Shown piece after piece: positions 1,665 to 8,151 of a stretch of 8,151 bases of DNA (positions are counted from its first letter, which is position 1; each line of letters opens with the position of its first letter). Both the position numbers and the translations under genes were made by a program. Under the pieces are notes generated by a model. The model had not been told where the DNA came from, made no database searches, and was given only the letters and a program-made list of their open reading frames with translations. This DNA comes from Bacteroidota bacterium (lineage in GTDB: Bacteria > Bacteroidota > Bacteroidia > Bacteroidales > UBA1556): assembly GCA_003648395.1 (NCBI GenBank), contig QMPB01000169.1, positions 1 to 8,151 on the forward strand, written 5' to 3'.

Positions 1665-2738
1665 TTACAATTCAGAATAATATTTCAATGCTTCAAGAAT
1701 GAGCCCCTCATCGATATTTTGATTAATATGAGCTTTACCAATTTCTGAAATAAGTACAAAACTAATATTAGAATCTGTATTCTTTTTATCTTTTCTCATA
1801 AAATCGATAAGTTGCGGAAAATCTTTCTCTTCAATTGAAAAAATACGAAAATTATCGAGAATATATTGTTGTATTTCTTCTCTTAGAGAATTATTAAAAT
1901 TCAAAATTTTTGAAGAAATATACATTTCTACTATCATTCCCAATGCAATAGCTTCACCATGATATAATTGTCGATTGTGAGGATTCATTGAGAAGGATTC
2001 AAAGGCATGCCCAACAGTATGCCCAAAGTTTAGGATTTTTCTAATGCCTTTTTCCTTAGGGTCTTGTGTTACAATATCATTTTTAATTTTGGCGCATTCT
2101 GTTACTATCATTTCATAATCAGTAATCTCATCAAGCTCTTGATTTTTCAGTATTTCCCATAATTTTTCATCGGCAATGAGAGCATATTTTAGAATTTCAC
2201 CAAAGGCAGAATTTTTATCTCTCTCTGGCAGGCTACTAATAAAATCTATACTAATAAAAATAGCTTCTGGATGGGCAAAAGTTCCAATTTGATTTTTTGC
2301 ATGACCAAGGTTAACTGCCGTTTTACTTCCAATAGCAGCATCAGTTTGAGCAAGCAAAGTAGTAGGAACATTAATAAAAGGAATCCCACGTTTAAAAGTT
2401 GAAGCTACAAAACCTCCCAAATCGGAAACCAATCCTCCACCAAGATTAATAATTAATGTTTTACGATTGGCATTATTCTCCAAAAGGGCTTCCCAAAGCC
2501 CGTTGGCAATTATTAGGTTTTTATTCTCCTCACCTGCATCAATTTCAAGGATTTCAGCATTTTGAAGCAGACTAACATTAGAAAGCAGTTTAGGAATACA
2601 AGTAGTATGAGTATTCTCATCTACAAGGATATAGTATTTTGAGTAATGGTCTTTCTTATTCTCTAAAAAATCATTTAAATACTTCAGACTGTCATCAATA
2701 AATATATCGTAATCGGGATTCTGTAAGACTTCTTTCAT
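1665..2738 (-). CDS. aroB: 3-dehydroquinate synthase
   Basis: AroB is a cytoplasmic NAD- and divalent-metal-dependent enzyme that turns DAHP into 3-dehydroquinate, the second step of the shikimate pathway. At 357 residues it has the usual length. The glycine-rich NAD-binding stretch GGGLVSDLGGF (100-110) is followed by the PTTLLAQTDAAIGSK segment (125-139). The expected metal ligands are present: E181 in GEILKYALI, H240 in NFGHTVGHAFE and H260 in HGEAIALGM. The gene begins ATGAAAGAAG, and this ATGAAA is also the last six bases of a 104-nt hairpin repeat (2733-2836), so its leader is formed by that element. It appears to head a three-gene run with the PH-like gene and the polyferredoxin. No other shikimate gene is in the window. 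Confidence 0.97.
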   Translation of the reverse strand: MKEVLQNPDYDIFIDDSLKYLNDFLENKKDHYSKYYILVDENTHTTCIPKLLSNVSLLQNAEILEIDAGEENKNLIIANGLWEALLENNANRKTLIINLGGGLVSDLGGFVASTFKRGIPFINVPTTLLAQTDAAIGSKTAVNLGHAKNQIGTFAHPEAIFISIDFISSLPERDKNSAFGEILKYALIADEKLWEILKNQELDEITDYEMIVTECAKIKNDIVTQDPKEKGIRKILNFGHTVGHAFESFSMNPHNRQLYHGEAIALGMIVEMYISSKILNFNNSLREEIQQYILDNFRIFSIEEKDFPQLIDFMRKDKKNTDSNISFVLISEIGKAHINQNIDEGLILEALKYYSEL

Positions 2739-2836
2739 ATGTCTAATTTTGTTAATATACTGATACGTAACATTATATAATATAAATAATCATTCTCTTA
2801 TGTGTTAAATAATTATTTTAATTATGAGTGTTTCAT
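2733..2836 (-). repeat. 104-nt hairpin leader repeat, copy upstream of aroB
   Basis: Read on the minus strand, this begins ATGAAACACTC at 2836 and ends with ATGAAA at 2738-2733, which is the aroB start. By hand alignment it matches the 7945-8048 copy without gaps at 87 of 104 positions. The first five codons are ATG AAA CAC TCA TAA (MKHS-stop). An in-frame ATG at 2848 would lengthen this to MKNSMKHS. The stem is retained: the ATGAT/ATCAT pairing of the other copies has become ATAAT/ATTAT, a G-C to A-T exchange on both sides, while the outer stem is weaker (two mismatches). The linker after the hairpin is AT-rich and about 30 nt long. Function is unknown; its place as the leader of aroB suggests a cis-acting RNA or DNA element. 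Confidence 0.85.
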
Positions 2837-2924: not shown

Positions 2925-3359
2925 TTAATGAATAGTTAAATCTAACTCCTTATTAGCCTCTTTCCAACATAAAGAATCACATTTCTGTATACTCTTCTTA
3001 TCCATTTTTACTCCATCTATAGTATACAGTATTTTATCTTCTAGTTTGTAAATAGCTCTAACTGAATAATATTCAGGAATTGGCATATTGTAAGTTACTG
3101 TAGAATTCAAAGCAGTATCGTATACAATTATATTATTCTCATCAAACCCTCCTTTGTAGATTTCAAAAGCAACAGAATGAATATTTTTACTTATTGTAAA
3201 CTTCATTTTCAATTCTGCTTCAAATGGTTCTACTGTATTACAATCGTAATAATTATATGTATCGCAATCTTCGTCGCTAACTGTTTGCTCACAGCCCGAA
3301 AGAAATAGAACTACGACCATTGGTAATAAACCAATTAGAAATAATATTTTTGACCTCAT
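2925..3359 (-). CDS. Small predicted lipoprotein, function unknown
   Basis: With the ATG at 3359 the protein has 144 residues. This start overlaps the preceding stop as ATGA, the same arrangement as the next junction upstream, so I prefer it to the ATG two codons earlier at 3365. A basic MRSK start, a hydrophobic stretch and the lipobox LSGC (Cys 23) mark it as a lipoprotein. The residues after the cysteine, EQTVSDEDCD, are acidic, as in surface-export signals of some Bacteroidota lipoproteins. Four further cysteines fall in two close pairs (Cys 32 and 40; Cys 127 and 131) and could form disulfides. The remaining roughly 90 residues look like a small beta-rich domain that I cannot assign. It is the last gene of the cluster and probably acts at the envelope with the ankyrin/barrel protein. 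Confidence 0.85.
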   Translation of the reverse strand: MRSKILFLIGLLPMVVVLFLSGCEQTVSDEDCDTYNYYDCNTVEPFEAELKMKFTISKNIHSVAFEIYKGGFDENNIIVYDTALNSTVTYNMPIPEYYSVRAIYKLEDKILYTIDGVKMDKKSIQKCDSLCWKEANKELDLTIH

Positions 3360-4768
3360 AACCATAAAGGATAATACTTTTTTGATTTTTGATAAAAAGG
3401 AATATTTACTCCAACGCCAATATTTATTCTGTGGGGAGAAACTTCATAGATATCAAAATTACTATATTGATAAGAAAAATCAATAATTAACATCTGATAT
3501 CTAAATGAAATCCCTAGTTCTGGCACAAATAAGAATGAAGTTGGTTCTTTTTGAGAAACACCATTATAATTCACAAAATGCCATTGAAATTCTGCACCAA
3601 TATATGGTTTAATGGTAAACTCTCCTGCTGGGACATAAAGAAAATTCTTTCTTAAATGAAACCCAACAATATTTCTATGTTCCCAATATTGATAAAATGT
3701 ATTTTCGTTTATCTTCTTTTGAATTGCTTTTTTCGTAAATCTTGTCCCATAAACAAATGAAGCCGACATATTATATCGTACTTCATTAACCCCAAACTTA
3801 AAGAATGAAGTAAAATCTTTTGCATTGAAACTTTCTGAGAATTTAATATGAAAAGAATTAATTAATGGTTTCCAATTTGCAGAATATCCATGATTTTTAA
3901 ATTGAGCTACTAATTTATAGTTTTCTAGACGATATGCCTCTTTTAGTAAATTATCACTTTTCTTCAATTTAAAAACGCCCTTTTGAAAAAAATCCATTAA
4001 CTTTTCAGTAGCGTAATTATTTTCATTCTTAATAGCTGTTTCAAGAAAATCATTCCAGTCGTCATCTTCCGTATTTGCTTGTATTAATTTTTTAAAATAA
4101 AAATTAAAAAGCACACTATCATCATTCTGAATTGCGATAGACATTGGAGAATATCCTTCACTATTTTTTATTTTTATTAGGTTACCTGAGTTTATTAATA
4201 GTTGTGTTAAAGCAGTATCTCCGGTAAAAGAGGCCAATAAAAGTGGTGAAGTCTGATATTTTGCTTTTAATTGAGCATTTGCACCATAAAATAATAGCAT
4301 ATCTACAATATATATATTATCGTAATAAGAAGCATAATGCAGTGCTGTACAGTTGTTCAGATCATGTAAATCAAGCTTCGTTCTTGCATTGTATAGAAGC
4401 AATTGTGCTACATCAAATTTACCCTGCAATGCGGCATTCATCAGTGGTGTAAAACCATCAAAAGTAGCGATATTAGGATTAGCCCCATAATAAAGAAGTG
4501 TTTTAATAACTTCCATATGTGCATTATTTGCAGCATAAAACAATGCTGTTGCTCCATTTGCATCACGATAATTAAGATTAATCCCCTTTAATATAAAACT
4601 ATTAACAGCTTTCACATCACCTCTATCGGCTGCATTTACAAAACTGTAATTTACCTTAGCACTATCACTCTGAGCTGAGCTATAATTACTAATAAACACC
4701 AAATAAATAAGTGGAATCAGCTTTGTAATACTATTAAATATATATTTCTTCCAAAAATCGACTATCAT
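3356..4768 (-). CDS. Secreted ankyrin-repeat protein with C-terminal beta-barrel-like domain
   Basis: This 470-residue protein starts with a basic segment and a hydrophobic core ending near SSAQS (residue 34), which reads as a signal peptide. Residues about 39-230 hold five to six ankyrin repeats. The clearest are 68-101 (GATALFYAANNAHMEVIKTLL, GANPN), 102-135 (GFTPLMNAALQGKFDVAQLLL), 137-168 (CTALHYASYYDNIYIVDMLLF, GANAQ) and 170-202. A charged helical stretch (235-295) follows. From about 300 to 460 the sequence alternates polar and aromatic or aliphatic residues in strand-length blocks (NMSASFVYGTRF, EFTIKPYIGAEFQWHF, ELGISFRYQMLIIDFSYQY, RINIGVGVNIPFY), as in outer-membrane beta-barrels. 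The natural model has the barrel in the outer membrane and the ankyrin stack in the periplasm. Its ATG overlaps the deacetylase stop as ATGA, and its own stop overlaps the lipoprotein start, implying translational coupling. The ankyrin call is firm; the barrel is inferred. Confidence 0.9.
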   Translation of the reverse strand: MIVDFWKKYIFNSITKLIPLIYLVFISNYSSAQSDSAKVNYSFVNAADRGDVKAVNSFILKGINLNYRDANGATALFYAANNAHMEVIKTLLYYGANPNIATFDGFTPLMNAALQGKFDVAQLLLYNARTKLDLHDLNNCTALHYASYYDNIYIVDMLLFYGANAQLKAKYQTSPLLLASFTGDTALTQLLINSGNLIKIKNSEGYSPMSIAIQNDDSVLFNFYFKKLIQANTEDDDWNDFLETAIKNENNYATEKLMDFFQKGVFKLKKSDNLLKEAYRLENYKLVAQFKNHGYSANWKPLINSFHIKFSESFNAKDFTSFFKFGVNEVRYNMSASFVYGTRFTKKAIQKKINENTFYQYWEHRNIVGFHLRKNFLYVPAGEFTIKPYIGAEFQWHFVNYNGVSQKEPTSFLFVPELGISFRYQMLIIDFSYQYSNFDIYEVSPHRINIGVGVNIPFYQKSKKYYPLWL

Positions 4769-5388
4769 GCTAAATGTTCTAAACTTTTAAAGCTATATCC
4801 TAAATTACTAAAATGCTGTAAAGTATTTTCTAAAGCATAGAGCATATTCTTTTCTGCTTTAAGGCTGTCGTGAAAAACAATAATTGAGCCATTCTTTGCA
4901 TTTTTCAAAACATTATTTTTACACTGCTCTTGACTAATTCCTATATCAAAATCACCTGATAAAACTGACCAGAATATAATATTAAACTTCTTTGACAATT
5001 GCTTTAGTTGTATCAATTTTATTTGCCCATGAGGAGGGCGAAATAACTTACTTTCAATGTTTTTTGCAGCTTTCTCAATATTTTCATAATACTCTTTATT
5101 GCTACATTTCCAAGACTTTATATGATTGTATGTATGATTACCAATGGCATGACCAGCATCTTGCACTTCTTGAAATAGATTAGGATGTTTATCAATATTC
5201 TCACCGACCATAAAAAAAGTTGCCTTTGCATTATACTCTTTTAATAATGCAAGAACTTTTGGCGTAACCTCTGGTATTGGTCCGTCATCAAAGCTCAAAA
5301 ATAAGTTTTTCTCAGTGGTTTTAACATTCCAATAAATCAAACTCTTAAAAAGCTTTCTTAATAGATATGGAGACTTTACTGTATACAA
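4765..5388 (-). CDS. NodB/CE4 polysaccharide deacetylase family protein
   Basis: This 207-residue protein is a single carbohydrate esterase 4 domain, whose members remove N- or O-acetyl groups from peptidoglycan or other glycans with a divalent metal. All five family motifs are visible: SFDDGP (32-37, catalytic base D34 and metal ligand D35), HTYNH (85-89, metal ligands H85 and H89), RPPHG (117-121), W140 with the D146/D148 region, and VFHDS (171-175, catalytic H173). There is no signal peptide. The start is TTG at 5388: no ATG or GTG lies before residue 60, and the beginning MYTVKSP resembles the starts I recall for short Bacteroidota homologues. The stop of the preceding gene is TAG at 5394-5392 in the same frame, giving TAG-AAA-TTG. 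The gene ends in an ATGA overlap with the ankyrin gene. The true substrate cannot be read from sequence. Confidence 0.93.
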   Translation of the reverse strand: MYTVKSPYLLRKLFKSLIYWNVKTTEKNLFLSFDDGPIPEVTPKVLALLKEYNAKATFFMVGENIDKHPNLFQEVQDAGHAIGNHTYNHIKSWKCSNKEYYENIEKAAKNIESKLFRPPHGQIKLIQLKQLSKKFNIIFWSVLSGDFDIGISQEQCKNNVLKNAKNGSIIVFHDSLKAEKNMLYALENTLQHFSNLGYSFKSLEHLA

Positions 5389-5942: not shown

Positions 5943-6131
5943 ATGTATAATTCAGTATTATTATTATTTACATTTGGTCCAACGGAGATTATTGTTATTC
6001 TCGTAATTGTGCTTTTGTTATTTGGAGGAAAGAAGATTCCTGAACTTATGAAAGGAGTTGGAAAAGGGATTAACGAATTCAAGAAAGGCACCAAAGAAGA
6101 AGATAAAGAAGATAAAGACAAAAAAGATTAA
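5943..6131 (+). CDS. tatA: Twin-arginine translocase subunit TatA/E
   Basis: TatA forms the pore-like oligomer of the Tat system, which exports folded proteins across the inner membrane. From the ATG at 5943 the protein has 62 residues. A short N-terminus leads to the FGPTEII start of the single membrane helix (about 11-27), then the hinge [10 protein letters not shown], the amphipathic helix [14 protein letters not shown], and a highly charged tail rich in K, E and D. All of these are hallmarks of TatA/E, with Gly-Pro in the place where TatA often has Gly-x-x-E. The frame is open back to a GTG at 5865, but those 26 residues do not resemble a TatA N-terminus and would overlap the probable promoter. 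The stop is 9 nt before a hairpin repeat that leads into the transglycosylase gene, so the two genes probably share a transcript. Confidence 0.93.
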
Positions 6132-6140
6132 TTATAAAAT

Positions 6141-6244
6141 ATGAAACACCCATGATTAAAATAATTATTAAACACACAATGGAATGATTATTTTCATCAT
6201 AAGGTGTTCCGTATCACTAAGTTGATAAAATTAAATATATGAAA
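6141..6244 (+). repeat. 104-nt hairpin leader repeat, copy upstream of the lytic transglycosylase
   Basis: It begins ATGAAACACCC at 6141, nine bases after the tatA stop, and ends with the ATGAAA (6239-6244) that starts the transglycosylase. It is identical to the 7945-8048 copy at 95 of 104 positions without gaps. The mini-ORF is ATG AAA CAC CCA TGA (MKHP-stop). The hairpin has 5' segments 6143-6150, 6152-6156 and 6158-6165 pairing with 6203-6210, 6196-6200 and 6187-6194. That gives about 20 base pairs in three blocks around a 21-nt loop (6166-6186), interrupted by one 1x2 internal loop and single mismatches. No U-run follows, so it is not an ordinary terminator. The stem lies about 28 nt upstream of the gene start. 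It may be an RNA regulatory or processing element or a mobile repeat. Confidence 0.88.
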
Positions 6245-7528: not shown

Positions 7529-7580
7529 TGACCCTGAAAGGGTCAAATACGAATAACCATGGGCGAAGCCCCATGGTTAT
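7529..7580. repeat. REP-like pair of GC-rich hairpins
   Basis: The first hairpin is TGACCC (7529-7534), loop TGAAA, GGGTCA (7540-7545). Seven bases later a stronger one follows: ATAACCATGGGC (7553-7564), loop GAA, then the complementary arm 7568-7580 with one extra C. These are by far the most GC-rich structures in the window. Paired hairpins with CCCTGAAAGGG and GGGCGAAGCCC-like cores are, as I recall, dispersed repeats in many Bacteroidota genomes, comparable to REP sequences moved by IS200/IS605-related transposases. No transposase is present here. It lies about 185 nt after the transglycosylase stop and could also slow or end transcription. Confidence 0.65.
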
Positions 7581-7944: not shown

Positions 7945-8048
7945 ATGAAACACTCATGATTAAAATAATTATTAAACACACAAGGGAATGATTATTTTTA
8001 TCATAAGGTGTTCCATATCACCAAATTAATAGAATTAAACATATGAAA
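7945..8048 (+). repeat. 104-nt hairpin leader repeat, first unit of a tandem pair
   Basis: It begins ATGAAACACTC and ends with ATGAAA at 8043-8048, which is also the start of the next repeat unit instead of a gene. It matches the 6141 copy at 95 of 104 positions. The mini-ORF is ATG AAA CAC TCA TGA (MKHS-stop). The same three stem blocks form, with a T-T mismatch where the 6141 copy has T-C and a T-G wobble in the outer stem. No gene follows directly, so the unit is free-standing or one part of a longer leader. Confidence 0.88.
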
Positions 8049-8151
8049 CGAACATGACAATTTTTAATCGTAAATTGACCCACAAGGTCATGATTAAAAC
8101 ATTGTTATGTGACTCCATATCACCTAATTAATAAATTTTAAACATATGAAA
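8043..8151 (+). repeat. Diverged 109-nt hairpin leader repeat, ends at ATGAAA on the window edge
   Basis: The first bases (ATGAAAC, then CATGA) and the tail (CATATCACC, AATTAATA, TTTTAAACATATGAAA) match the other copies, but the stem between them is new. 8053-8061 and 8062-8069 pair with 8101-8109 and 8092-8099: seventeen pairs with one G-T wobble and a bulged C at 8100. Inside the 22-nt loop a further perfect hairpin forms, TGACC-CACAA-GGTCA (8076-8090). The mini-ORF is ATG AAA CGA ACA TGA (MKRT-stop). The last six bases of the window are ATGAAA (8146-8151), either the start of the next gene or of another unit. Keeping the fold with a different sequence argues that structure matters. Confidence 0.8.

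Follow-up and report, generated by a model that had tools for sequence, protein, structure and literature searches.

Background

IS200/IS605 transposons form single-strand hairpins, keep a fixed orientation and insert 3′ of a short fixed target. The attC sites of integrons conform to the consensus RYYYAAC/GTTRRRY, and the targets of IscB/HEARO are ATGA. According to one account, IS200/IS605 elements carry an internal guide that base-pairs with the cleavage sites, and Bacteroidetes Y1 genes of subclass 2.6 have 'atypical secondary structures' beside them that recur at other places in the genome (PMC6006769). Two other papers describe the Rickettsia palindromic elements, mobile palindromes that are tolerated because gene function is spared (PMC10969869), and the TAACTGA repeats of Beggiatoaceae, which are abundant intergenic direct repeats (PMC4679880).

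Here we describe a family of hairpin elements first seen as four copies in an 8,151-nucleotide stretch of Bacteroidales DNA, referred to below as the window. We think it likely, from sequence comparisons, that this is a non-autonomous mobile element, mostly about 94–143 bases long, which inserts after ATGAAA and regenerates it. We recognised no published description of it in the literature searched, which leaves out most subscription papers and all preprints.

Four copies of a hairpin repeat

The element copies in the window and the genes around them are as follows.

6141–6244, plus strand: element copy 1, 104 nt, ATGAAAC...ATGAAA, in the tatA/SLT interval (fold z −2.9)
6141–6147, plus strand: left box ATGAAAC of copy 1 (from the sequence and the empty site L148)
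6206–6212, plus strand: foot box GTTCCGT of copy 1, family consensus GTTCCAT (from the sequence and family comparison)
6239–6244, plus strand: right end ATGAAA of copy 1, which is codons 1 and 2 of the SLT gene
7945–8048, plus strand: element copy 2, 104 nt (fold z −3.0)
8010–8019, plus strand: GTTCCAT and ATC of copy 2 (from the sequence and family covariation)
8043–8151, plus strand: element copy 3, 109 nt, with another stem and the same head and tail (fold z −4.5)
2733–2836, minus strand: element copy 4, ending on the aroB start codon (fold z −0.5)
5943–6131, plus strand: tatA-like gene upstream of copy 1, 9 nt from its stop to the left ATGAAA
6239–7345, plus strand: lytic transglycosylase gene with an SLT domain (PF01464, 6e-30), host gene of copy 1
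1665–2738, minus strand: aroB, 3-dehydroquinate synthase gene (PF01761, PF24621), host gene of copy 4

The original prediction of three 104-nt copies that align without gaps and one 109-nt relative is borne out by alignment. Copies 1 and 2 are 92% identical over 106 nt with no gap, the minus-strand copy is 81–84% complementary to both plus-strand 104-nt copies over 105 nt, and copy 3 needs one 4-nt and one 1-nt insertion to be aligned with the other three. Direct reading agrees that all four begin ATGAAAC and end ATGAAA. The long hairpin that had been proposed for all of them is found in copies 1, 2 and 3, which fold more stably than their dinucleotide shuffles (z scores as listed), and not in the aroB copy, for which 61 of 200 shuffles fold equally well and which looks partly decayed. 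The copies were also said to end exactly on gene starts, and this is visible for two of the four (SLT at 6239, and aroB at 2738 on the minus strand). Copy 2 ends on the start of the next copy, the two standing in tandem with the ATGAAA at 8043–8048 common to both, and copy 3 stops at the final base of the window, so that the sequence 3′ of it is unseen.

The foot box of copy 1 is mostly complementary to its left box, in which ATGAAA would be the original target and the C the first base of the element. In copy 2, CATAT (within 8010–8019) can pair with ATATG at the right end (8041–8045). At E ≤ 1 none of the element copies in the window has an Rfam match; the sole match in the window at that threshold (5268–5319) lies outside the elements and is far under its cut-off, and a tRNA search found no tRNA in the window. 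Elsewhere in the window, a gene for an ankyrin-repeat protein adjoins a polysaccharide deacetylase gene (3356–4768 and 4765–5388, minus strand).

Distribution and plan of the family

The tail pattern was found at 16 loci in the genome collection, all of them in Bacteroidales/Bacteroidetes MAGs, and gave no match in viral contigs. In six of the pattern-positive genomes a profile, R1, has 18, 33, 4, 18, 22 and 23 matches at E ≤ 0.001, with 150 candidates scored per genome and weak matches counted in. R1 is a sequence-only model because RNAalifold gave no pair on the first alignment, in which two stem types were misaligned. Eleven of 60 relatives of one element-bearing genome have matches at E ≤ 1e-5, five of the eleven being already in the six-genome set. 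A wider survey used the pattern GTTCCATNNNNCN{14,40}AAANNNATGAAA, with both trinucleotides unconstrained, which is present in 73 of 393 genomes sampled from the order of genome G002; the most matches per genome are 78 (G196) and then 36 (G093). As a control, the reversed pattern gave 7 matches in total, and some of the single matches in the survey are thus due to chance. The survey pattern is blind to the other foot type, and G004 (18 profile matches) and G009 gave none. The search for further copies that had been proposed thus found many, and the observation of four copies in the window is beyond chance, since the family recurs in many further genomes.

Diverged members share a plan of ATGAAAC, a hairpin, GTTCCATxyz or a variant of it, an A-rich stretch and z′y′x′ATGAAA, usually with a gene next. 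The constant length noted in the window is not general, and whole elements of the family span the range given above. In G006 an identical 107-nt copy is present at six loci in six different contexts, which points to recent spread. We note that the left end of the window copies can be read as a minimal upstream open reading frame (ATG AAA NNN NNN TGA/TAA); this four-codon frame is absent from other subtypes and was therefore not retained as a property of the family.

GC-rich palindromes (CCTGCCTGCGGTAGGCAGG or close to it; CCCGATAGCTATCGGG) are nested within element copies at L001, L008, L010, L031 and L094 (in the right part of the element) and at L049 and L052, often at one position, 3′ of the hairpin foot and ahead of the tail. 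The element is thus itself a landing site for another repeat family.

Occupied and empty sites

Several loci can be compared with and without the element. In the window the tatA-like gene is followed by 9 nt and then ATGAAA-element-ATGAAATGG, and the tatA/SLT pair of G005 has 9 nt followed by ATGAAAATA and is element-free. The SLT gene is also element-free in G001, G002, G003 and G004, where the gaps are 9, 10, about 160 and 7 nt and the starts are not ATGAAA. A second example is pgk (PF00162), which has one copy in G001 and, in G002, a whole copy with the end of a further one, truncated by the contig end, in front of it. Element-free pgk genes have plain ATGAAATCA in G003, G004 and G007 and ATGAAGTCA in G005; the comparison also took in G010 and G011, which had no match, and G012, in which the start position was not resolved. 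At a further locus, with a left flank common to G003 and G004, a second copy begins in G003 only.

The element adjoins ATGAAA precisely and in one orientation, as ATGAAA-[C...ATGAAA]. There is ATGAAA at both junctions, which reads equally as a target-site duplication or as a target plus an element end. Copies may stand in tandem, with ATGAAA common to neighbours. Of the 121 copies with a head found, 98 have ATGAAAC as their left box, heads having been sought with that pattern. A C directly follows the right ATGAAA in 17 of 130 elements, compared with 52 of 306 in the background, and there is thus no G|TT requirement at the target. The empty sites at two genes, SLT and pgk, demonstrate, as far as comparison of sequences can, a precise insertion after ATGAAA that regenerates ATGAAA. 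Because the last six bases of the element are ATGAAA, a gene that begins ATGAAA keeps its codons 1 and 2, and this choice of target explains how the element can escape harm, the start codon being rebuilt.

Two covarying helices

In a set of 186 right ends that contains some chance matches, complementarity is found in 157 at x, in 157 at y and in 123 at z (1000 shuffles; means 69, 135 and 108, maxima 91, 144 and 120). Reduced to one row per genome and pair type (100 rows, from 61 genomes and still with chance matches), the set has complementarity at all three positions in 50 rows, as against a shuffle mean of 12.9 and a maximum of 24 (5000 shuffles). Fully complementary pairs are of eight types (CTG/CAG, GTG/CAC, ATG/CAT, CCG/CGG, ACG/CGT, CAG/CTG, AAG/CTT and TTG/CAA), and the copy 2 subtype (CATATC...CATATG) forms five pairs with a mismatch at the sixth. 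Such covariation demonstrates a predicted helix in which CATxyz, just 3′ of the hairpin, pairs with z′y′x′ATG at the right end of the same element.

The hairpin base was compared in 87 unique elements with ATGAAAC and GTTCCAT intact. Beside AAC:GTT there is a tandem G.A in 42 of these, both pairs are canonical in 26, and neither is in 19. Canonical pairs occur at the two positions in 30 and 32 of the 87 (shuffle means 19 and 25, maxima 25 and 32), and the changes here establish a predicted hairpin closed by AAC..GTT within the element. Conservation of structure, which had been put forward as a check on the four copies, is therefore found for two helices, each kept by compensatory change: one at the hairpin base, the other between CATxyz and the right end.

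The left ATG and the right ATG are alternative partners of a single CAT, which cannot pair with both at once; from this we infer a role in recognition of the ends. The left flank is complementary to the x of the internal guide in 59 of 120 copies (shuffle mean 37, maximum 51), a set in which some heads are misplaced and some flanks are the tails of older copies. In G110 the expected left-flank base was counted by eye in none of seven copies with the guide GTG.

A mechanism can be proposed in which the element probably moves as a folded single strand. GTTCCATxyz would pair alternately with the left junction ATGAAAC and the right junction z′y′x′ATG, and this alternation would position the cuts, much as the guide sequences of IS200/IS605 do. 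The cuts would be made by a recombinase acting in trans, of either the HUH Y1 type or the tyrosine type. The coupling of the right end to an internal segment by compensatory changes provides a directly testable rule for end recognition. The suggestion in the original prediction of a functional or mobile unit is supported by the dispersed copies, the six exact copies in G006, the empty sites, the tandems and the two helices.

Right ends and gene starts

Gene starts were called by crude open-frame rules. Among 158 right ends, 103 open a frame of 50 codons or more, 19 are at intergenic positions that are not starts and 26 lead into another copy; 4 more are too near an end, and the other 6 were filed inside another frame, although each opens at least 253 codons. 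The same test applied to ATGAAA outside the elements gives 153 starts, 286 non-starts and 718 within other frames. The share of starts is 103 of 122 classifiable element ends compared with 153 of 439 ordinary intergenic ATGAAA (odds ratio 10, Fisher p = 3e-23). Despite this strong bias, ATGAAA between genes is also used. One example is the copy at L014, which lies between convergent reading frames, 8 nt beyond the end of one of them. The genes downstream of copies are unrelated, and include aroB, SLT, pgk and a nucleotidyl transferase.

The enrichment at starts, roughly tenfold over other intergenic ATGAAA, together with a covarying second helix that includes the start codon, could be read as a mobile or once-mobile 5′-leader switch, with copies kept for gene regulation. 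In the mRNA, CAUxyz and z′y′x′AUG would mask the start codon, and pairing of the upstream AUGAAAC with GUUCCAU would free it; the tandem G.A at the foot of the hairpin would be in keeping with an RNA. We regard this as unlikely, given that the downstream genes are unrelated and that orthologues of SLT and pgk are found without the element. Furthermore, 19 copies end at non-starts, the L014 copy is between convergent frames, and some subtypes lack the four-codon frame that opens at the left ATGAAA.

For an element that is mobile and non-autonomous, the bias would reflect selection for harmless sites. Selection against harmful sites may be enough, and a functional gain or a targeting effect may contribute; the second helix possibly adds an effect on translation. 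A broader proposal, which we put forward tentatively and would not bet on, is that these elements are an undescribed, Bacteroidales-wide mobile class that homes to translation starts, moved by some recombinase as a folded single strand, with GTTCCATxyz reading both ends, the start codon rebuilt and a start-masking helix put in place. If this were true, transposition would also rewire translation. Structured leaders have been inserted at the 5′ ends of many Bacteroidales genes, and these matter for the annotation of start sites and for the reading of 5′ UTR regulation in Bacteroidales.

Candidate mobilising enzymes

Y1 transposase genes are present in 12 of 12 element-bearing genomes, and across the order in 269 of 393 genomes (60 of the 73 that are pattern-positive and 209 of the 320 that are pattern-negative). 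G073 and G119 have element copies and no Y1 match. The flanks of 22 of 36 Y1 matches, inspected by eye over 230 nt per side, have other, mostly GC-rich palindromes, and no element ends were seen in them. A profile scan of 30 Y1 loci (89 kb) revealed element copies in two. At L144 (G041) a decayed copy (1362–1460) is antisense and directly beside a broken Y1 frame, and at L124 (G003) a copy is about 0.9 kb from the Y1 gene. Given tens of copies per genome, this proximity is near what chance would give, yet it is a lead, if a weak hint. We also note two palindromes in the window (ACCCTGAAAGGGT and ATAACCATGGGCGAAGCCCCATGGTTAT, 7531–7580) that by eye are like the repeats flanking some of the Y1 transposase genes in relatives (e.g. 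L122).

A REP or MITE family of the usual sort, which duplicates a 6-bp target and is moved in trans by a known transposase, would be expected to look much like the element in being small, dispersed, palindromic and mostly intergenic, and the predominance of ATGAAAC among the heads found, sought though they were by that pattern, agrees with it. It seems quite improbable, since no terminal inverted repeats are visible in the element alignments, the target is a single fixed hexamer, there is a second helix to the right end, and the Y1 genes are mostly flanked by other palindromes.

No integron integrase above the curated cut-off was found in 22 element-bearing genomes, some of which may be incomplete. 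Matches below the cut-off are present in 21 of these 22 and in 14 of 14 control genomes, and weak matches of this kind are expected from any tyrosine recombinase. Among the best of them in element-bearing genomes are tyrosine recombinases of about 545 aa (L311, L312 and L314) with an N-terminal extension and a motif like RWSxTxxxWHxP. Two copies have recombinase neighbours, which could be due to chance: one at a non-start ATGAAA (L100, 998–1103; G006 contig 81) has a gene of the phage integrase family 248 nt downstream of its end, and another, at L313, is about 1.4 kb from a recombinase frame.

These searches bear on a third possibility, that the element is an integron-like cassette without a gene, in which ATGAAAC/GTTCCAT and the 2x2 mismatch correspond to the R boxes and spacer of attC, and the bottom strand is recombined at G|TTTCAT by a tyrosine recombinase. 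The boundaries of the unit and the tandem copies fit, and on the bottom strand the two boxes can form a 7-bp helix that includes a G.T wobble. The top strand is the more stable in only 35 of 87 elements with DNA parameters (p 0.009) and 41 of 87 with RNA parameters (p 0.047), although the asymmetry is small and neither strand is clearly better. We consider such a cassette very unlikely: the boxes depart from the attC consensus, an integrase above the cut-off is found in none of the 22 genomes, and the bases after the right ATGAAA show no G|TT requirement.

An IscB (RRXRR) gene was found in none of 12 genomes, in a search whose control also gave nothing, and HEARO had no Rfam match (the window at E ≤ 1, eight loci at E ≤ 5). 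No transposase-like frame that would mark an autonomous copy was seen upstream of head-less right ends (first 50 residues, by eye), and in the genomes examined no gene for a transposase or a recombinase could be linked to it.

Comparison with described systems

The claim that the repeats belong to no named kind is supported with respect to Rfam families, attC sites and MITEs, while kinship with IS200/IS605 or REP elements may exist. Eight element loci searched against Rfam at E ≤ 5 had only five weak matches, all far under their cut-offs, the boxes do not follow the attC consensus, and no MITE-like inverted ends are visible in the alignments. The Rickettsia palindromic elements sit within genes, whereas the element here stops at the start codon (PMC10969869). 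The TAACTGA repeats are likewise intergenic, and 'start codon' and 'Bacteroidetes' are among the words counted for that paper, but they are 7-nt repeats, with no hairpin element in the portion seen (PMC4679880). With attC sites the element shares a hairpin, boxes of the form xxxxAAC/GTTxxxx, often with a 2x2 mismatch, and tandem copies; it differs in that ATGAAAC...GTTCCAT departs from the consensus, the unit contains no gene, and no integrase passes the cut-off.

REP/REPtron systems resemble the family in their many dispersed hairpins, and the atypical structures reported beside Bacteroidetes Y1 genes (PMC6006769) may overlap with the element. Two Y1 genes, L126 and L127, look like members of subclass 2.6 by the motif YIHxNP. 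They are flanked by other palindromes, with no element copy by profile scan.

The element resembles hairpin transposons that move as a single strand and recognise their ends through an internal segment; the precise insertion and the covariation are observed, and the mechanism beyond them is one that we infer. Although its guide-like segment is 3′ of the hairpin foot, whereas the IS200/IS605 guide is 5′ of it, and although a single segment faces both ends and no Y1 gene was found tied to the element, it is like IS200/IS605 in its hairpin, its single orientation, its place 3′ of a fixed ATGAAA and its internal segment complementary to the ends.
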